DNA of 64,000 nt from Acidobacteriota bacterium (lineage in GTDB: Bacteria; Acidobacteriota; JAAYUB01), in the NCBI GenBank assembly GCA_029565065.1, contig JAKQOW010000017.1, forward strand, positions 1-64,000, read 5' to 3'. Within the stretch, counting starts at the first letter, position 1. Each line of letters begins with the position of its first letter. Under the pieces are notes generated by a model. That model saw only the letters and a list, made by a program, of their open reading frames with translations, was not told where the DNA came from and made no database searches. Of this stretch, positions 9,057-43,339 are shown piece by piece. The position numbers and the translations under genes were made by a program.

Positions 9057-9065
9057 TGGTATAAT
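9057..9065 (+). promoter_or_regulatory. Extended -10 promoter of gyrB
   Basis: TGGTATAAT (TG at 9057-9058, TATAAT at 9060-9065) lies 41 bp before the gyrB ATG in the A/T-rich gap after recF. No strong -35 is visible, as expected for an extended -10 promoter. It suggests gyrB is transcribed independently of recF. Confidence 0.6.
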
Positions 9066-13602: not shown

Positions 13603-13611
13603 TGATATAAT
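13603..13611 (+). promoter_or_regulatory. Extended -10 promoter of the ZIP transporter gene
   Basis: TGATATAAT (TG 13603-13604, TATAAT 13606-13611) lies 39 bp before the chosen ATG at 13650. It is of the same TGnTATAAT class as those before gyrB and the subtilase. Confidence 0.55.
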
Positions 13612-25475: not shown

Positions 25476-25550
25476 GTGTCGGCCCGTTCCCGTCGCGCGT
25501 GAAGCCGGTGGCGACCGGCGAAGGCGCGGAATGATTGTGAGTGCAAGGTT

Positions 25551-25556
25551 ATTATA
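25551..25556 (-). promoter_or_regulatory. -10 element for the FAD oxidoreductase/CFA unit
   Basis: Minus-strand TATAAT (complement of 25551-25556) sits inside the palindrome GGTTATTATAACC in the divergent gap 25476-25680. The symmetric sequence could also be an operator. Inference. Confidence 0.4.
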
Positions 25557-25680
25557 ACCGCAGATGCGGCCGGCACGCGCGGAGATTCTCCGCCGACTCC
25601 GCCGCCGCCCGGGAGAAAGCGGACCGGGGCACCCGCGCCGCATCCAAGTGGGCAGCGGAACCCAACGCGGAGGGGCCTCG

Positions 25681-26475
25681 ATGATCGCAGCACCCGTGGC
25701 CTGGATCACCGGCGCCAGCTCCGGCATCGGCCGGGAGCTGGCCCGCCGGCTGCACCGTGAGGGATACCGCCTGGCCCTGACCGCCCGGCGCGCCGATGCC
25801 CTGGAAGCATTGAGGGCGGAGCTGGAGGGGCCGGCTGGCGATCGGGTGCTGGCGCTACCGGCCGACGTGACCCGGACGGAGGAACTCGCGGCCGCCTACG
25901 GCGAACTGCGGGCGCGTTGGGGCGTGCCGGACCTGGCGGTGGCCAACGCCGGCGTCCACCAGGGCGGCCGGGGCGCGCAGCTCGACTGGCCCAACTGCCG
26001 GCGTGTGCTGGACACCAACCTGCTCGGCACGGTGCACACCGTCGCATTGACGGCACCAGACATGGCGGCACGGGGCAGCGGTACCGTCGTCGGCATCGCC
26101 TCGCTGGCTGGCTACCGCGGCCTGCCCGGCACGGGCGCATACTGTGCCGGCAAGGCCGGCCTCATCGCGTTTCTGGAGAGCATCCGCTTCGAGCTGGAGC
26201 CGCGGGGTGTCCGGGTGGTCGTGGTCAACCCGGGCTTCGTCCGCACCCCCATGACCGACCAGAACGACTTCCCCATGCCGTTCCTCATCGACGCCCCTGC
26301 CGCAGCCGAGGCCATCTGGCGGGGCCTGCGCCGCGGCCGCCGCGAGATCGCCTTCCCCGTCCCCTTCGCCTGGCTGGTAAAGCTCATGCGCATCATCCCT
26401 TACCCGCTGTACCACGCCGTCGTAGCGGCCGTTGCCGCCCGCCGCGCTGGTACCCGTCAGCCGAACGGCGTATAA
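25681..26475 (+). CDS. Short-chain dehydrogenase/reductase
   Basis: A 264-residue classical SDR. Cofactor motif TGASSGIG (10-17), NAG in VANAGVHQ, active-site YxxxK in GAYCAGKAG, and the segment VVNPGFVRTPMT. The basic residues after the glycine motif (ALTARR) favour NADP(H). A hydrophobic C-terminal part (FAWLVKLMRIIPYPLYHAVVAAVA) suggests membrane association, common in SDRs of lipid metabolism. ATG 25681 has GGAGGGG upstream. It is divergent from the FAD-DUF1365-CFA unit; an SDR is a regular companion of that cluster in other bacteria. Substrate unknown. The stop codon overlaps a TATAAT that may serve the next gene. Confidence 0.88.
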   Translation: MIAAPVAWITGASSGIGRELARRLHREGYRLALTARRADALEALRAELEGPAGDRVLALPADVTRTEELAAAYGELRARWGVPDLAVANAGVHQGGRGAQLDWPNCRRVLDTNLLGTVHTVALTAPDMAARGSGTVVGIASLAGYRGLPGTGAYCAGKAGLIAFLESIRFELEPRGVRVVVVNPGFVRTPMTDQNDFPMPFLIDAPAAAEAIWRGLRRGRREIAFPVPFAWLVKLMRIIPYPLYHAVVAAVAARRAGTRQPNGV

Positions 26476-26476
26476 T
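26471..26476 (+). promoter_or_regulatory. -10 element for the AlgB-like regulator gene
   Basis: TATAAT spans the SDR stop codon and lies 58 bp before the regulator's ATG. No clear -35 was seen. Position-based inference. Confidence 0.35.
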
Positions 26477-26534
26477 GCCGCCCATGCATCGTTCACCGAA
26501 CGGAGGTGAACAGGCCGGCGGAGAATAGAAAAAA

Positions 26535-27896
26535 ATGAGCCGCACCCTGGAGCGCGTTCCCAACCTGAACATCCTCATCGTCGATGACGAGGCCAATATC
26601 CGCCGGACCATGGCGATGTGCCTGGAGAGCGAAGGACACGCGGTGACCGGTGTGGATTCGGGTCTGGCGGCCATCGAGGCGACCGATCGGCGGGTGTACG
26701 ACCTCATCTTCCTGGACCTGCGGCTGGAAAACGAGAACGGGCTCGACTTCATCCCTCGCCTGCTGGCGGCGGCTCCGTCGGCGCGCATTGTGGTGGTGAC
26801 GGCGTATGCATCTATCGAGTCCGCCGTTGCGGCCATCCGGAGCGGGGCCTTCGATTTTCTGGCCAAGCCGTTCGACCCGGAACAGATCCGCTTGATCGCC
26901 CGGCAGGTGGGAGCTTTCCGAAGACTGGAACATGAGGTGACCGAGCTGCGAAGCGACCTGGACCGGGTGCATCCGGAGCAGGATTTCCAGACGGCGTGTC
27001 CGGCGATGCAGCGGGCGGTGGAGATGGCCCGTCAGGTAGCTGCAGCCGAGGCCACGGTGCTCCTGAACGGCGAGAGCGGAACCGGCAAGACGGTGCTGGT
27101 CCGGGCGATCCACCGATGGAGCCCACGGGCGGGGAAGCCGTTCGCGGTGGTCTCGTGCGCCAGCCTGAATCCGGAACTCCTGGAAAGCGAGCTGTTTGGC
27201 CATATCAAAGGCGCATTCACGGGCGCCGTGCGAGACAATCCCGGCCGGATCGCGGCGTGCGAGGGGGGGACGCTCCTGCTGGACGAGGTGGGGGATCTGC
27301 CGCCGCCGATCCAGCCCAAGCTGCTCCGGTTCCTGCAGGATCGGGAATATGAACGCGTTGGGCAGTCAATCACCCGGCATGCGGATGTGCGGATCATCGC
27401 CGCCACCGGCGCCGACCTGAAGCAGGCCGTGGCGAACGAACGGTTCAGAGAGGACCTCTATTACCGGCTCAACGTCATCCCCATCTGCCTGCCGCCGCTG
27501 CGGGAGAGGCGGGAGGACGTATCGACCATGGCTGACCGGTTGCTGGCCGTCTTAAACCAGGCTAATCGGAAACATGTCGAGGGGTTCACTGCGGATGCCC
27601 GGGCGACTCTTCAGGACTATCGCTGGCCGGGCAACATCCGGGAGCTGCGAAACGTGGTGGAACGTGCCGTGATCCTGTGCCGCGGAGCCCGTATCGGGAC
27701 GGAGCACCTGCCCGAAGAGTTGGTGGGCCCCCGTCAGCTCGTCCGGCTGGGCGATCCCGTACCGCTGTCCACCATCGAAGAGCAGCACATTCGCCGGATC
27801 CTGGCCAGCGCCCTGAGCCTGCAGGCTGCGGCGGAGATACTGGACGTGGACCCGGCCACGCTATGGCGACGCCGCAAGCAGTACGGCCTCGAGTAA
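26535..27896 (+). CDS. Sigma54-dependent response regulator, AlgB/NtrC-like
   Basis: A 453-residue three-domain activator. The receiver domain spans 11-127 with phosphoacceptor D61 (LIFLDLRL). The AAA+ domain spans ~150-375 with Walker A GESGTGK (179-185), the sigma54-contacting GAFTGA (226-231) and LLLDEVGDLP. A C-terminal Fis-type helix-turn-helix follows (LQAAAEILDVDPATLWRRRK). Sequence around GAFTGAVRDNPGRIAACEGG closely follows AlgB of Pseudomonas, and the next gene encodes a KinB-like sensor. It should activate sigma54 promoters when phosphorylated; a sigma54-like site lies just downstream at 28030-28045. ATG 26535, with GGAG 12-15 bases upstream. Confidence 0.92.
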   Translation: MSRTLERVPNLNILIVDDEANIRRTMAMCLESEGHAVTGVDSGLAAIEATDRRVYDLIFLDLRLENENGLDFIPRLLAAAPSARIVVVTAYASIESAVAAIRSGAFDFLAKPFDPEQIRLIARQVGAFRRLEHEVTELRSDLDRVHPEQDFQTACPAMQRAVEMARQVAAAEATVLLNGESGTGKTVLVRAIHRWSPRAGKPFAVVSCASLNPELLESELFGHIKGAFTGAVRDNPGRIAACEGGTLLLDEVGDLPPPIQPKLLRFLQDREYERVGQSITRHADVRIIAATGADLKQAVANERFREDLYYRLNVIPICLPPLRERREDVSTMADRLLAVLNQANRKHVEGFTADARATLQDYRWPGNIRELRNVVERAVILCRGARIGTEHLPEELVGPRQLVRLGDPVPLSTIEEQHIRRILASALSLQAAAEILDVDPATLWRRRKQYGLE

Positions 27897-28029
27897 CCAA
27901 TCGCCTGAATCACCCCCCACTCCCTTCTTTGTCGTGCAATATGCAATCCGCCTGAGCAGCGATCGGGCATTTTGCATGCTGGTTGTGCCGAAAACACCCG
28001 GCCCGCAGCCCTTTGGCCGTATTCCGGAT

Positions 28030-28045
28030 TGGCATCCGTTGTGCA
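28030..28045 (+). promoter_or_regulatory. Candidate sigma54 promoter before the KinB-like/Trk operon
   Basis: TGGCATCCGTTGTGCA matches the -24/-12 consensus TGGCACRNNNNTTGCW at 13 of 16 positions counting free positions, with correctly spaced GG (28031-28032) and GC (28043-28044). It lies 58 bp before the kinase ATG. An inverted repeat GTTCGGC/GCCGAAC (28057-28063, 28072-28078) follows. Weaker than the two sites near 53.7 and 54.7 kb. Confidence 0.45.
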
Positions 28046-28102
28046 TTTATCCGATTGTTCGGCGGGCAATGGCCGAACGGATCCCATCTCAGAGGCAGCC
28101 TC

Positions 28103-29935
28103 ATGACGCTCCGCTTGAAGATATTGTTCGGTTACGGAATGGCCTTCTTGCTGACGGGGATCGTCCTGGTCTGGGCGGTCCACAACCTGGTTGATCTGGG
28201 CCAAGCTTCGGAGGCCATCCTCAGGGAGAATTACAAGAGCATCCAGGCCGCTGGGCAGATGATGAATGCCGTGGAAGAGCAGGATGCAGCCGTGCTCCAG
28301 GTGCTGCTCGGCGATAGTCTGGCGGGCCGGGCCCGCTTCCGGCAAAACGAAGCCCGTTTCTTCGAATGGCTGGGTCGGGCAAAAGACAACATCACCGTCA
28401 CCGGCGAGGCCGGGGTCATCGAAGAATTGGACCGCAGATATGCCGCCTACCGGTCGGCCGCGACAGACAGCCTGGTCGCGCTGGACCCGTCGCGTGTGGA
28501 GGCGAGGGAAGACAGTCAGAGCCGGTTGGCCCCGCTGTCCAGGGCCGTCCGGGAACAGTCGGAGCGCCTGCGGCGGCTGAATGAACAGGCGATGTTCGGC
28601 ACCAGCCGGCAGGCCCGACGATTAGCCCGGCAGGCGGTGTGGTCCACCAGCGGCGTCGGCTTGATGGCGATGACGATTGGGCTGGTCGTCAGCGTCCTGC
28701 TGTCCAAGCGCCTGGTTCGCCCGTTGCACCGGCTGGCGGCTGCAGCCCAGCGGGTTGGCCAGGGACACTACGACGTGGAGCTGCCTGTCGACAGCCGGGA
28801 CGAGCTTGGCCTGCTGACGGGGGAGTTCAACGCGATGGCCCGCCGGCTCAAGGATTACCGGGATATGAACGTGGAAGAGATCATGGCCGAAAAGAAACGG
28901 GGCGAGGCCATCCTGCGGAGCATCGAGGACGGTATCCTGGTGATCGACCCGGACCTGCGGGTGACCCATATCAACCTCACCGCCCTCACCCTGTTGGCGG
29001 TGACGTCCGAACAAGCCATCGGGCGGCACTTTCTGGAGGTGATCAATGATGAGGGCCTGCTCGCCCTCCTGAGGCAGACAGCCGACACACGGGAAGCCCC
29101 GCATCTGGGCGAGGACCGAATGATCCTGACGCTGAATCGGGGCGGAGAAACACGCCACTGCACCTTCGCCGTGACGCCGGTGAGCGGCAGCGGATCGGCG
29201 TTGCTGTGTGTGGTCCTGTTGCTTCGCGACGTGACGAGATTCCGTGAACTGGACCGGCTGAAAAGCCAGTTCGTAATGACCGCTTCCCACGAGTTGCGCA
29301 CACCTCTGACCAGCATCAGTATGAGCATCGGCTTGTTGCGGGAGCGGGCCATCGATCGCCTGGATGACGCGCAACGCCAGCTGCTGGACGTGGCGTACCA
29401 GGAATCGAACCGCTTGAGGGCGCTGGTCAACGATCTGCTGGATCTCGAAAAGATCGAATCGGGACGAATCGAAATGCAGTTTGAAAAAGTGCCCGTGTCG
29501 CGATTGGCCGAACGGGTCCTGGCCATCTTTAGGCCGCAGACTGACAAGGCTCATGTGACCCTGGTGGCGAGCCTGCCCGAAGAACCGGTTTTTGTGCGCG
29601 CGGACAGTTCCAAGATCTCCTGGGTGCTCACCAACCTGATTTCCAATGCGCTGCGTTACGTGTCGTCCGGCGGTCATATAGACATCCGGGCTGAACGGGC
29701 AGGCGAATTCGTGCACGTGTCCGTCCGGGACGACGGCCGCGGCATACCCCGGGAGTTTCAGGACAGGATCTTTGACAAGTTCGTTCAGGTCGGCGACAGC
29801 CGGGACAACCGTGGAAGCGGTCTGGGACTGGCCATTTGCCGGGAAATAGTCCGCGCCCACACGGGGACCATCTGGGTGGACTCCGAACCGGGCAGCGGCA
29901 GCACATTCACCTTCACCCTGCCGGTGATGGAATAA
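28103..29935 (+). CDS. Sensor histidine kinase, KinB-like
   Basis: A 610-residue membrane sensor. TM1 is about 6-28, a ~150-residue extracytoplasmic helical sensor follows (29-178), TM2 is about 181-200, then HAMP (200-255), PAS (about 265-380, GILVIDPDLRVTHIN), HisKA with H396 in MTASHELRTPL, and HATPase_c (NLISNALRYVSSG; DDGRGIPREF; GSGLGLAICREIV). The order matches KinB, the partner of AlgB. ATG 28103 has AGAGG upstream. It lies 206 bp after the regulator gene and heads a run of genes with short gaps or overlaps through trkH, so it may sense a signal tied to potassium or osmotic status; that link is inferred from gene order. Confidence 0.92.
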   Translation: MTLRLKILFGYGMAFLLTGIVLVWAVHNLVDLGQASEAILRENYKSIQAAGQMMNAVEEQDAAVLQVLLGDSLAGRARFRQNEARFFEWLGRAKDNITVTGEAGVIEELDRRYAAYRSAATDSLVALDPSRVEAREDSQSRLAPLSRAVREQSERLRRLNEQAMFGTSRQARRLARQAVWSTSGVGLMAMTIGLVVSVLLSKRLVRPLHRLAAAAQRVGQGHYDVELPVDSRDELGLLTGEFNAMARRLKDYRDMNVEEIMAEKKRGEAILRSIEDGILVIDPDLRVTHINLTALTLLAVTSEQAIGRHFLEVINDEGLLALLRQTADTREAPHLGEDRMILTLNRGGETRHCTFAVTPVSGSGSALLCVVLLLRDVTRFRELDRLKSQFVMTASHELRTPLTSISMSIGLLRERAIDRLDDAQRQLLDVAYQESNRLRALVNDLLDLEKIESGRIEMQFEKVPVSRLAERVLAIFRPQTDKAHVTLVASLPEEPVFVRADSSKISWVLTNLISNALRYVSSGGHIDIRAERAGEFVHVSVRDDGRGIPREFQDRIFDKFVQVGDSRDNRGSGLGLAICREIVRAHTGTIWVDSEPGSGSTFTFTLPVME

Positions 29936-29946
29936 AGAGGAACGAC

Positions 29947-30648
29947 ATGGGTAACACAGCAAGGATTTTGATTGTGGATGACGAACGGAGCATCCGGCTG
30001 ACTCTGGTTCAGGCGCTCGAATCGCCTGAGCGGACGGTCGAGGCGGCGGTCAACGGCGAGGAAGCCCTGCTTTATCTCGAACGGGAGCGGTACCGGGTGA
30101 TTCTCCTGGACCTGCGCCTGCCGGGCATGGACGGGCTAGATGTATTGAAGCGGATCCGGAGCAAGCAGCCCGAAGCGGCAGTGATCATCATCACCGCCCA
30201 CGGCAGCATCGACGCCGCCGTGGAAGCCATGAAGCGGGGAGCGGCGGATTTTCTGCAGAAGCCGTTCATCCCCGATGAAGTGCGGCAGCAAGTTGACCGT
30301 CTGATTACAAGGCAGGCGGGGCCGCCGGATATGGTCGCCGACTACTTCGACCGGCTGGCCAGGGCCCGCCAATTGATGGCGGACGACCGCCTGAATGAAG
30401 CCGAACTTGAAGTCAGGGCCGCCATCGCCTTGGACCCGGATCGGCCGGCGGCATTCAACCTCATGGGCGCCATCCATGAACAGCGCCAGGATCCGCTGAC
30501 CGCCATCCGGGAATACCGGGCCGCCCTGGCCCTGGCTCCCGCGTACGAGCCGGCGCAACGAAACCTGGAACGGCTGACCAGCTGGCCCCGTTCGGGTCGC
30601 ATCATGCTGGAAGAACCCACAGGGAAGCCGGAGGATAAGGGGAAGTGA
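29947..30648 (+). CDS. Response-regulator receiver protein with C-terminal TPR
   Basis: A 233-residue protein. The receiver domain (residues ~5-120) has the acidic pair DDE (11-13), phosphoacceptor in LLDLRLPGMDG (about D58), T in ITAHG and the conserved lysine in LQKPF. After a linker, residues ~140-215 form TPR helices (RQLMADDRLNEAELEVRAAI; NLMGAIHEQRQDPLTAIREY). No DNA-binding or enzymatic output domain is present, so it probably acts by protein contact. It starts 11 bp after the KinB-like kinase with AGAGG upstream, and its stop overlaps the next start (GTGA). It is the natural second target of the kinase, perhaps linking it to the TrkA proteins. Confidence 0.9.
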   Translation: MGNTARILIVDDERSIRLTLVQALESPERTVEAAVNGEEALLYLERERYRVILLDLRLPGMDGLDVLKRIRSKQPEAAVIIITAHGSIDAAVEAMKRGAADFLQKPFIPDEVRQQVDRLITRQAGPPDMVADYFDRLARARQLMADDRLNEAELEVRAAIALDPDRPAAFNLMGAIHEQRQDPLTAIREYRAALALAPAYEPAQRNLERLTSWPRSGRIMLEEPTGKPEDKGK

Positions 30649-31088
30649 GCGCTCATCACTATGTCGTTATCGTCGGCTGCGGGCAAACCGGCTCCCGACT
30701 GGCCAACCGGCTCAGTGCCCAGGGCCAGAGCGTGGTGGTGATCGACCGCCGGCCGGAATCATTCGCGGCGCTGAGCCTTGAGTTCAGCGGCTTCAGCCTG
30801 GAGGGGGACGGCACCGACTCGGCCTGCCTGGAGCAGGCCAAGATTGGTCAGGCCGACCTGGTGGTTGCCGCCACCCGCGAAGACGCCGTGAACATGATGG
30901 TTGCTCAACTCGCCCACCGGGTGTACAGGGTGCCTCGGGTGGTGGCCCGGGTGTTTCATCCCGAGCGGGCTTCCTTCTGCCGGGAGTTGGGCCTGACGAC
31001 CATTTGTCCCGCGGACGCCACTGCCGATGCCGTCCTGGGACTGGTGGGTTTTGGGAACAGCTCCTGCGGGTGCCGGGAGGACTCATGA
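30645..31088 (+). CDS. TrkA-N (RCK) domain protein, short form
   Basis: A 147-residue protein made of a single RCK_N/TrkA-N nucleotide-binding domain: IVGCGQTGSRLA (glycine motif, ~9-20), VVVIDRRPE and GDGTDSACLEQAKIGQADLVVAAT. Such domains bind NAD(H) or ATP/ADP and gate Trk/Ktr potassium channels. It lacks the C-terminal TrkA_C domain. The start is a GTG overlapping the preceding stop by 4 bp, with GGAGG upstream. Its stop overlaps the next start. With the following TrkA-type protein it would give two RCK subunits for one TrkH, mirroring the duplicated halves of E. coli TrkA but in separate genes. Confidence 0.88.
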   Translation: MSAHHYVVIVGCGQTGSRLANRLSAQGQSVVVIDRRPESFAALSLEFSGFSLEGDGTDSACLEQAKIGQADLVVAATREDAVNMMVAQLAHRVYRVPRVVARVFHPERASFCRELGLTTICPADATADAVLGLVGFGNSSCGCREDS

Positions 31089-31762
31089 AAATCCTTGTGG
31101 CGGGTGGCGGGAAGCCGCTCTATTTCTTGTGTCGCCGGTTTCTGGCGAAGGGTTGCCGGGTCACCGTGGTCAACCGCGATGCGGACGAGTGCGGTCGTTT
31201 GTCCCGTCAACTTCGGGCGATCGTGGTGCATGGGGACGGCACGGATCCCGTCAAGCTGGAGGAGGCCGGGGTGCGGGAAGCCGACGTGGTGCTGGCGATC
31301 ACGCCGCACGATCCGGACAACCTGGTCATCTGCCAGCTGGCGGCGCGTTGCTTCAGCGTGCCTCATGTCATCGCCGTCGTCAACGATCCGGATAACGAAA
31401 CGGCCTTCCAAAAATTGGGGGTCAATGCGTTTGCAACCACCCGGATCATCGCCGGCCTGATCGAACAGCGGGCGGCTTTCCAGGAAATCACCAGCCTGAT
31501 CCCCCTGGGCGAAGGCCGGGTGATCGTGACAGACATCCTTCTCCAGGCGGATATGCCGGCCGCCAACCGGTCTCTGCGGGAGCTTGAACTGCCGCCGGAT
31601 GCCCTGGTGGCTTGCCTGGTGCGCCAGGGACAGGCGGTCATTCCCCGGGGGGGCACGCAACTGCTGCCCGACGATCGGGTGATGCTGATCTCGTTGCCGG
31701 AAAACCACGGCCCGGCCCTTCGAGCGATTACCGGTGAGCGGAAAGGCCAGGCGCGAACATGA
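31085..31762 (+). CDS. trkA: Trk potassium uptake regulatory protein TrkA
   Basis: A 225-residue TrkA/KtrA protein. Residues 1-~125 are the RCK_N domain (MKILVAGGGKPLYFLCRRF, with GGGKP in place of the usual GxGxxG; HGDGTDPVKLEEAGVREADVVLAITPHDPDNLVICQLA in separate segments). Residues ~140-220 are a TrkA_C domain (ADMPAANRSLRELELPPDALVACLVRQGQAVIPRGGTQLLPDDRV). It binds the cytoplasmic face of TrkH and gates potassium uptake. The altered glycine motif may weaken nucleotide binding, perhaps compensated by the companion RCK protein. ATG 31085 overlaps the previous stop; its own stop overlaps the trkH start (ATGA). Confidence 0.9.
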   Translation: MKILVAGGGKPLYFLCRRFLAKGCRVTVVNRDADECGRLSRQLRAIVVHGDGTDPVKLEEAGVREADVVLAITPHDPDNLVICQLAARCFSVPHVIAVVNDPDNETAFQKLGVNAFATTRIIAGLIEQRAAFQEITSLIPLGEGRVIVTDILLQADMPAANRSLRELELPPDALVACLVRQGQAVIPRGGTQLLPDDRVMLISLPENHGPALRAITGERKGQART

Positions 31763-33252
31763 ATCGCATCGAATTTCTGGCCAGCCGATACCGGGCTATC
31801 CTCGCGTACACTGGTCTGATGTTTCTCCTGGTCGCCGGTTTGATGCTGACTCCGTTGCTGGTGCTCGTGGCGTGGCCGGATGAAGCGGTCCAGGCTGCGT
31901 GCTTCATCGTGCCCGCCGTGGTTATGGCGGGTGCGGGGTGGATCCTGTGGCGTATGTTCCGTCCGCGGGGAGCGGCTGTGCTTTCGGCGGCGGAGGGGGG
32001 GGTGATCGTCCTGATGAGCTGGAGCGGGGCGATCTTCGCTAGTGCGATGCCCTTCATCCCGGCGGCGTCGCTCAATCTCACCCAGGCCGTGTTCGAGGCG
32101 GTGAGCGGCTGGACCACCACTGGCCTGTCGGTGGTGGATGTCACCCAGGTGTCGCACATGGTGCTGCTGTGGCGGAGCATGATGCAACTCGCAGGTGGGG
32201 CAGGGTTGGTCGTCATCATGCTGGCGGCTCTGGCGGGGCCGATTGGGCCTGGCTTGTCCATCGCCGAGGGCCGGACGGACCAGTTGGTGCCGCAGGTTCG
32301 CCGATCCGTCCGCCTGGTCGTGCTCATCTACGGTATCTATATGGTCCTGGGGGTGGGGGGGCTCCGGCTGGTCGGCTTGACATGGTTTGATGCGGTCAAT
32401 CATGCGTTTCCGGCGATCTCAACCGGCGGGTTCTCCTCGTACCCGGACAGCGTCGGCCACTGGGACCGTCCGCTTGTCGAAGGTGTTCTCATCGGTTTGA
32501 TGATTCTGGGCAATCTCAATTTCTTGACCGCTTACCTCTTACTGCGGGGCCGTTTACGGTCGGTGGTCCGCAATGGCGAAATTCGGTTGATGGCGCTGCT
32601 GATCCCCGTCAGTGCCGTTGTGGCGTATCTGGCCACCTGTCGGGCGTTGTACCCGGCCCCGTGGAAAGCAGTCCGGGTCGCCGTCTTCGAGACCATTTCC
32701 GCGCTCACAACCACCGGATTCCAGACCGTGACTTACGGTTCCTGGAACGGGCCGGGCGTCTGGGTGCTCATCGTGCTCATGCTCATCGGCGGCGGAGTCT
32801 GCTCCACGGCGGGAGGCATCAAGCAATACCGCGTCCATCTATTGTTCCGGGTCATGCTGGGCGAATTGCGACGCCTGCTGCTGCCCCGATCGGCAGTGGT
32901 GTCGGAGCCCCTGTGGCAGGGAGAATACAAGGTTTTCCTCCAGGACGCACAGATCCGGCAGGTGGTTGCCTTCGTCTGCCTATACCTGTCCACCTATGCG
33001 GTGGGCAGCCTGCTCCTGATGATGACCGGCAGCGCCCTGGAACCGGCGCTGTTCGAATTCGCTTCGGCACTTGGCACGGTGGGCTTGTCGGTGGGAGTGA
33101 CCGCACGCGGGGCGCATCCGGTGGCGCTGTGGACCATGTCCACCGGCATGTTCTTGGGCCGCCTGGAATTCGTGGTGATCCTGGTCACTCTGATCAAGCT
33201 GGGCCGGGATTTTCAACAGGCGGTGCGTTTCACTTCCCGCAACCGGGTGTAG
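31759..33252 (+). CDS. trkH: Trk-type potassium uptake channel subunit TrkH
   Basis: A 497-residue SKT-family potassium channel. Four pore-loop repeats each carry the selectivity glycine: SGWTTTGLSV, AISTGGFSSY, ALTTTGFQTV and ALGTVGLSVG. About ten to twelve hydrophobic segments surround them, including the N-terminal LAYTGLMFLLVAGLMLTPLL. The intramembrane-loop region GGGVCSTAGGIKQYR matches the conserved CSTAGGIK of TrkH. It is the last gene of the coupled trkA-trkA-trkH set. A new promoter follows 9 bp after the stop, marking the operon end. Expression is probably set by the two-component system at the head of the region. Confidence 0.94.
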   Translation: MNRIEFLASRYRAILAYTGLMFLLVAGLMLTPLLVLVAWPDEAVQAACFIVPAVVMAGAGWILWRMFRPRGAAVLSAAEGGVIVLMSWSGAIFASAMPFIPAASLNLTQAVFEAVSGWTTTGLSVVDVTQVSHMVLLWRSMMQLAGGAGLVVIMLAALAGPIGPGLSIAEGRTDQLVPQVRRSVRLVVLIYGIYMVLGVGGLRLVGLTWFDAVNHAFPAISTGGFSSYPDSVGHWDRPLVEGVLIGLMILGNLNFLTAYLLLRGRLRSVVRNGEIRLMALLIPVSAVVAYLATCRALYPAPWKAVRVAVFETISALTTTGFQTVTYGSWNGPGVWVLIVLMLIGGGVCSTAGGIKQYRVHLLFRVMLGELRRLLLPRSAVVSEPLWQGEYKVFLQDAQIRQVVAFVCLYLSTYAVGSLLLMMTGSALEPALFEFASALGTVGLSVGVTARGAHPVALWTMSTGMFLGRLEFVVILVTLIKLGRDFQQAVRFTSRNRV

Positions 33253-33258
33253 GGAGAA

Positions 33259-33267
33259 TGCTATAAT
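33259..33267 (+). promoter_or_regulatory. Extended -10 promoter of the zinc-ribbon gene
   Basis: TGCTATAAT (TG 33259-33260, TATAAT 33262-33267) begins 7 bp after the trkH stop. The predicted transcript start near 33274 leaves a very short leader before the TTG at 33287. Confidence 0.6.
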
Positions 33268-33286: not shown

Positions 33287-33598
33287 TTGCGGCCCCCCTC
33301 GGGAGGGCGGCGGGCGGCGCCGGACGAGGAGCCGGTGGCCGGTACCGACCCCTTCGGCGCGGCGGGCGGCCTGACGCCATGTGCCGCCTGCGGGGCCCTC
33401 CGTGGGGAGTGCCGGTCGCCCGGGATACCGGAATTGATGGTGCCGGTGCGCTGCGCCTGCGACAACACCCGCCGCTGCTGCTGATGCGGTCGTCCGCTCC
33501 AAGCCTTCGCCACCGGCCCGTGGCGCTGGGATCCCGACGCGAGGGCGCCGGTCTACGTCCCTGCCTGGCAAGTCCTGGAGCATCGCTGCGGCCACTGA
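33287..33598 (+). pseudogene. Small zinc-ribbon-like protein interrupted by in-frame TGA
   Basis: A 104-codon frame with a TGA at codon 66 (33482-33484) and coding character on both sides. Before it: PCAACGALRGEC, then VRCACDNTRRCC; after it: CGRPLQAF, WDPDAR and a terminal EHRCGH. The cysteines pair across the TGA as RCCxCGRPL, so the stop lies inside a CxxC metal-binding knuckle. The pattern CxxCG-RGEC-CxCDN-RCxxCG...HRC is one I associate with a small zinc-ribbon family of unknown function in environmental bacteria (recollection, not checked). Possible explanations: recent nonsense mutation (CGA to TGA), a sequencing error, or recoding. The start is uncertain: TTG 33287 or GTG 33335. TGA is the normal stop of many genes here. 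Confidence 0.65.
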
Positions 33599-33742: not shown

Positions 33743-34633
33743 TTACCCCACCGGAGAATCGGGATCCGTCGGCGGTGGCATGGGCGGCTGCGGCGCCGCT
33801 GCGCGCGCTTCGAAGCTCGGCGCCTTCGTGGCGCCAGACGAAGCAGCCGGTGAGTCGGGATCCGGCTGGGGGATGGGCGGCGGGGTCGGGGCCGCAGCGC
33901 GGACGTCGAAACCCACCAGGTTGATCGCGTCATCGGGGTCGGGCGGATCGGGCGGGGAGGGGACAGGTTCCGGATCCGGGGTGGGGACGCCGTACCGCGG
34001 ATCGGGCGGATGGGGTTGGCCGGTGTCAGGCAGGGAAGGCGGTTTGGGGCCGCCCTGTTTTAGCGTTTCAACCAGGTTCAGCTGCGGCGGGCCGACGCCC
34101 TTGCGGCCGTCGGGCCGCTTGGGGGTGTCCGGGTAGCCGCCGCCCCCCGGTCCCGCCGGGTCGGGCGAGGTGGCCGTGGGGCCGATGTCGTGGCTGAAGG
34201 GCAGCTCATCGATCAAGCCCCCCGGCTGCTTGCCCAGGTCGGACGAATCGGGGAGCCGGGTCTGGGGGGGGCGCAATCCCTGGCTCGGCAGCTCCACTCC
34301 GAGCCGGCCCGCCTGCTCCGCCACGCCGCCGGCGGAGTGTAATTTGCCCATGTTCACTCTCAGCTGGTTGGCGGTGAAGACCGGCTGGTGGCTGTCCAGC
34401 CCCGAGTTGTATTTTTCATCCGAATAGGGATCTTTTCCGGACGTATTCCCGCCGGGGGGCGAAGGGGGTTTGTCGCTTTCGCCCGGATCCCACTGGGGCG
34501 GCTGATACTCGACCATCCGGTCATTCACCGGCGCATTCGGTGCGCCGTCCGCCGCGAGTCGGTTCGGTCCGAGCGGATCCCCTTCGGGGATGTCGACAGC
34601 TCCGAACGGATCGACACTGTTCGCAATCTTCAT
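33743..34633 (-). CDS. Proline-rich, probably disordered protein of unknown function
   Basis: A 296-residue, highly acidic and proline-rich protein with almost no predicted secondary structure, no signal peptide and no membrane segment. The C-terminal third is dominated by PDP/PPP runs and contains a duplicated unit: VRAAAPTPPPIPQPDPDSP and ARAAAPQPPMPPPTDPDSP, separated by about 15 residues. One ordered-looking stretch is around residues 93-125 (HQPVFTANQLRVNMGKLH). I recognise no family. It is judged real because ATG 34633 has an excellent GAGGAGG at proper spacing, and codon use follows neighbours. It is flanked by the zinc-ribbon gene (convergent) and an ICMT-like gene (same strand). Confidence 0.6.
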   Translation of the reverse strand: MKIANSVDPFGAVDIPEGDPLGPNRLAADGAPNAPVNDRMVEYQPPQWDPGESDKPPSPPGGNTSGKDPYSDEKYNSGLDSHQPVFTANQLRVNMGKLHSAGGVAEQAGRLGVELPSQGLRPPQTRLPDSSDLGKQPGGLIDELPFSHDIGPTATSPDPAGPGGGGYPDTPKRPDGRKGVGPPQLNLVETLKQGGPKPPSLPDTGQPHPPDPRYGVPTPDPEPVPSPPDPPDPDDAINLVGFDVRAAAPTPPPIPQPDPDSPAASSGATKAPSFEARAAAPQPPMPPPTDPDSPVG

Positions 34634-43254: not shown

Positions 43255-43263
43255 ATTATACCA
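43255..43263 (-). promoter_or_regulatory. Extended -10 promoter of the flavin reductase-amidase unit
   Basis: Minus-strand TGGTATAAT (complement of 43255-43263), 51 bp before the chosen ATG. It lies back to back with the subtilase promoter at 43331-43339. Confidence 0.6.
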
Positions 43264-43330: not shown

Positions 43331-43339
43331 TGCTATAAT
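43331..43339 (+). promoter_or_regulatory. Extended -10 promoter of the subtilase gene
   Basis: TGCTATAAT, 49 bp before the ATG at 43388; identical in form to the element before the zinc-ribbon gene. Confidence 0.6.

Follow-up and report, generated by a model that had tools for sequence, protein, structure and literature searches.

The window analysed here, a stretch of 64,000 nucleotides from an Acidobacteriota genome, contains a short frame on the plus strand (33287-33598), which translation shows to be broken by a single internal stop, TGA 33482-33484, and closed by a terminal TGA at 33596-33598. The frame lies between a block of regulatory and Trk genes and a convergent ORF. The features of the locus are the following:

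25533-33252, plus strand: block of genes for an SDR, an NtrC-type regulator, a histidine kinase, a response regulator, two TrkA proteins and TrkH; its right edge abuts the probable remnant, and it is absent at the same place in the same-genus genome G002
33259-33267, plus strand: probable extended -10 promoter element TGCTATAAT, directly 5' of the probable remnant (sequence, over-representation)
9057-9065, 13603-13611, 33259-33267 and 43331-43339, as well as 43255-43263 on the minus strand: copies of TGNTATAAT (motif count)
33299-33598, plus strand: probable remnant of a gene from an uncharacterised family of 190-275-aa proteins, covering the zinc-ribbon-like C-terminal domain, with one interruption of the frame (homology, profile, alignment)
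33335-33337, plus strand: in-frame GTG, a weak start candidate behind AGGAG at 33327-33331, which resembles a ribosome-binding site, with a spacing of 3 nt (sequence, inference)
33482-33484, plus strand: in-frame TGA, at a position occupied by Arg in four homologues, by Ala in one and by the codon TGG in the same-genus relic (sequence, alignment)
33743-34633, minus strand: convergent Pro/Gly-rich ORF of 296 aa without a Pfam match, the right-hand syntenic marker, 88% identical in G002

The frame, its internal TGA, the cysteine motifs and the extended -10 element had been described in an earlier sequence-only reading of this DNA, and all of them are borne out by sequence and translation. The coding character which that reading saw on both sides of the stop is supported by homology rather than by composition, as matches cross the TGA. 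An intact homologue, searched back against the window's genome, aligns with 33299-33589 (E 2.3e-13), and a profile built from three intact homologues of Acidobacteriota origin aligns with 33302-33592 (E 3.3e-16; profile positions 6-105 of 108). Homologues ending at the TGA had been named as a refutation of that reading; those that were found run past it.

The extended -10 element starts just past the trkH stop at 33252. Its perfect motif TGNTATAAT is found five times in the window versus 0.06 expected, and the other copies that were inspected lie a short distance before likely gene starts, which suggests that these copies are strong extended -10 promoters in a GC-rich genome. Because the motif is over-represented and the inspected copies precede gene starts, the copy at 33259-33267 is credible and, on these sequence grounds, probably a real promoter. 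A scan with sigma-70 and terminator consensus sequences found nothing.

A rare family of cysteine-rich proteins

When 396 genomes of the phylum were searched with a C-terminal query, three intact homologues came up (L017, L018 and L023), and later scans added L072 as well as L074, the latter in an IMG/VR contig. Carriers of homologues with a name are Acidobacteria bacterium RA.bin134 (L070) and Candidatus Saccharicenans subterraneus (L071). The family is rare, being present in 4 of the 396 genomes when the window's own is counted, and homologue and profile searches found only one copy in that genome. A 77-aa query against 99 relatives, along with a peptide scan of genome contigs and plasmids, yielded no true homologue; a weak match, L005, was rejected, since the stretch in question shows no related protein.

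Intact homologues measure 190-275 aa, and their alignment contains eight conserved cysteines and a conserved histidine, all of which are present in the window copy. Over about 100 residues the window copy is co-linear with this unnamed Acidobacteriota family (L070-L074) and shares its pattern C-x2-C...RGEC ... V-x-C-x-C-x-N ... C-x2-C ... VP ... H-x-C. Including the eight cysteines and the histidine, it retains 23 of the 39 residues that are invariant across five homologues. It differs from the family in three respects: the N-terminal part of about 130-145 residues is missing, the TGA falls within the last CxxC, and the motifs KLNANFY and HVPGF, which are invariant or nearly so in the homologues, are altered. 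The first 130-145 or so residues of the homologues have no counterpart in the window or elsewhere in its genome, and the frame 33287-33598 holds no convincing start. The element is therefore a truncated C-terminal domain of the family. The small zinc-ribbon gene proposed from the sequence is thus zinc-ribbon-like as stated, yet not complete, since it corresponds to the C-terminal 100 or so residues of a 190-275-aa protein.

At the position of the TGA the five homologues carry Arg, Arg, Arg, Ala and Arg (codons CGC, CGC, CGC and CGG for Arg, GCA for Ala). These are sense codons throughout, with neither TGC nor TGT among them, which answers the proposal to look up the relatives' codon at this site. 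As the homologues carry Arg or Ala here, a change from an Arg codon, as had been guessed, would be the simplest path to the stop, and Arg is the residue in four of the five.

Going by the cysteine pattern, the family would bind zinc. Neither Pfam nor NCBIfam holds a model for the remnant or for the three intact homologues, PADLOC gave no match for two homologues, and Rfam returned nothing above threshold. A PHROGs match and the matches of a PDB sequence search were at chance level and were set aside. An AlphaFold model of an intact homologue is of low confidence (pLDDT 57) and found no Foldseek match at E<=0.001; we therefore claim no function on the basis of fold. The genes adjacent to intact homologues share no common theme and include an M49 peptidase, a PARG-like protein, TauE, an ABC ATPase, an esterase, a beta-lactamase-like protein, and BrxL with a serine recombinase. 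In the IMG/VR contig with an intact homologue, BrxL carries a C-terminal MIT_C (phospholipase D-like) domain (L074:76-2235), and the serine recombinase lies at L074:8732-10306.

The corresponding locus in a same-genus genome

The window and G002 share the flanks of the locus, namely an amine-oxidase-like gene (95% identical) with the next gene on the left, and the Pro-rich ORF on the right; beyond the latter, G002 has an ORF equal in length to the M28 peptidase of the window. The Pro/Gly-rich ORF itself occurs in the window's genome (G000) and in G002 and was not found in G001, G003, G004 or G005. In G002 these flanks enclose no counterpart of the 7.7-kb two-component/Trk block at 25533-33252, and accordingly synteny breaks at the remnant. 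The GC content of the block is mostly lower than that of its flanks (0.60-0.66 versus about 0.70-0.73). The block is likely a lineage-specific insertion, and on the simplest reading its insertion removed the 5' end of the gene; alternatively, the block was possibly deleted in G002. As for other relatives, the amine-oxidase match in G001 lies at a contig end, and in G003 reading by eye revealed neither trk genes nor a family copy beside the amine oxidase.

Between the same flanks G002 harbours a relic of this gene, which aligns with the window copy over 135 bp at 76% identity (E 4e-21). It has TGG where the window copy has TGA, and all five aligned cysteines are replaced, their TGC codons having become AGC, GGC, CGC, CGC and GGC. 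Codon differences between the two copies comprise 18 nonsynonymous and 2 synonymous ones. Seven of the differing sites are invariant in the homologues, and at 7 of 7 it is G002, not the window copy, that departs from the common residue. Nonsynonymous decay is hence clear in the G002 relic, while the window copy retains its cysteines. Given the relic at the sister locus and the changes on the G002 side at invariant sites, the gene probably predates the split of the two lineages; judged by sequence comparison, it would be long dead in G002 and would have been under constraint until recently in the lineage of the window.

Decay, error or recoding of the TGA

We consider it probable that the feature is a recent remnant of a zinc-ribbon-like gene, truncated at its 5' end and interrupted by a nonsense codon. 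Before this species and G002 parted, their ancestor would have possessed an uncharacterised gene for a protein of about 190-275 aa with an eight-cysteine C-terminal region. In the lineage of the window, the start and the 5' part of about 130-145 codons would have been lost at the synteny breakpoint beside the trk block, and the TGA would have arisen by nonsense mutation of an Arg-type codon within the last CxxC; decay of this locus would have gone much further in G002. Any translation would halt at the TGA and yield a peptide without the last two conserved cysteines and the histidine. The damage in the window copy appears young, because its eight conserved cysteines survive and those in the alignable part of G002 are gone. 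The element resembles ordinary bacterial pseudogenes in its missing start and N-terminus, its premature stop, the sister-species relic with nonsynonymous decay and its position at a synteny breakpoint. It differs from them in an unusually intact set of cysteines and in the probable promoter directly upstream.

This degree of preservation (23 of 39 invariant residues, all cysteines and the histidine, a probable promoter) speaks against a remnant and fits a short form that was working until recently. The explanation that ranks next, though we regard it as unlikely, is a short zinc-ribbon gene that works from its own promoter at 33259 and in which the TGA stems from faulty base calling or assembly consensus, or represents a minor strain allele. 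A single base change would suffice, the genome is a draft of 184 contigs, the extended -10 motif looks real, and the retained cysteines and homologue-invariant residues are as this explanation would have them. However, the N-terminal half of the homologues and a convincing start are both missing, KLNANFY and HVPGF are altered, and the sister locus in G002 is a relic.

Suppression or readthrough of the TGA, for example by a near-cognate tRNA-Trp, would allow a functional zinc ribbon to be made at a low level. The cysteines and the histidine downstream of the stop are preserved, and G002 has TGG at this position. Yet nothing speaks specifically for readthrough, the N-terminal part is missing here too, and the G002 copy with its TGG is itself decayed, so that we hold this explanation to be very improbable. 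As regards an alternative genetic code, the tRNA-Trp found in the window's genome has the anticodon CCA, and the gene set examined there reads normally under table 11.

Decoding of the TGA as selenocysteine, which would make the element a new selenoprotein with a CCUC motif, ranks lower again and is most unlikely, even though the genome is equipped for it. A search for selA, selB and selC had been proposed, and the Sec machinery is indeed present: the genome encodes SelA (E 5e-117), SelB (E 1.4e-16), a tRNA-Sec with the anticodon TCA and an FdhA with an in-frame TGA at a VDHCARTU site. This Acidobacteriota lineage thus appears to decode selenocysteine. The SECIS element of this formate dehydrogenase (FdhA, L063:1651-1800) is a textbook one, with a perfect 7-bp stem and a GGUCU loop that lies 18 nt after the TGA. 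The candidate structure at the remnant is the following:

33508-33525, plus strand: 6-bp hairpin, CGCCAC-CGGCCC-GTGGCG, with the loop CGGCCC 29 nt after the TGA; a weak SECIS look-alike, judged to be a chance structure

Of the two hairpins reported in the sequence-only reading, this one is exact, whereas the 4-bp hairpin lies at 33486-33497, one base off the reported 33485-33496. The loop had been said to lack the usual G-U element; the loop is indeed not of the GGU type, but its second position is a G, and the hairpin passes a loose bacterial SECIS (bSECIS) model (PMC13188914). SECIS-like hairpins are common, however, being found with 6 bp at 4.8% and with 4 bp at 38% of the 1514 TGAs in the window. 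The folding energy downstream of the TGA equals that of shuffled sequences (z-score 0.20), and the hairpin is unlike the FdhA SECIS of the same genome.

In a published selenoprotein search, more than half of the homologues had to pair the TGA with Cys, and single sequences were treated as candidates only, because of possible sequencing errors (PMC1088965). Here, Cys is found at this position in 0 of 5 homologues, the TGA is carried by the window copy alone when the five homologues and G002 are compared, and G002 combines TGG with the loss of the aligned cysteines. The element shares with bacterial selenoproteins that have an in-coding SECIS, such as the FdhA of this genome, an in-frame TGA, coding sequence beyond it and a Sec-decoding genome; unlike them, it lacks a Cys partner, a conserved TGA and a GGU-type loop, and its folding energy is average. 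A variant in which the promoter drives a short zinc-ribbon protein, with the UGA in its knuckle (C-C-U-C) read as Sec where relatives have Arg, ranks last and is extremely improbable. Of the three options raised earlier, knockout, assembly error and recoding, a loss-of-function stop fits the homologues, while selenocysteine recoding is left without a Cys partner, a second TGA carrier or a convincing SECIS.

The probable remnant thus carries a caution: where a genome has a complete Sec system, an in-frame TGA amid cysteines mimics a selenoprotein, and it is the homologues, the relic and the control for the chance rate of hairpins that argue for a decaying gene. At the same time, the analysis brings to light a rare, uncharacterised family of cysteine-rich proteins.
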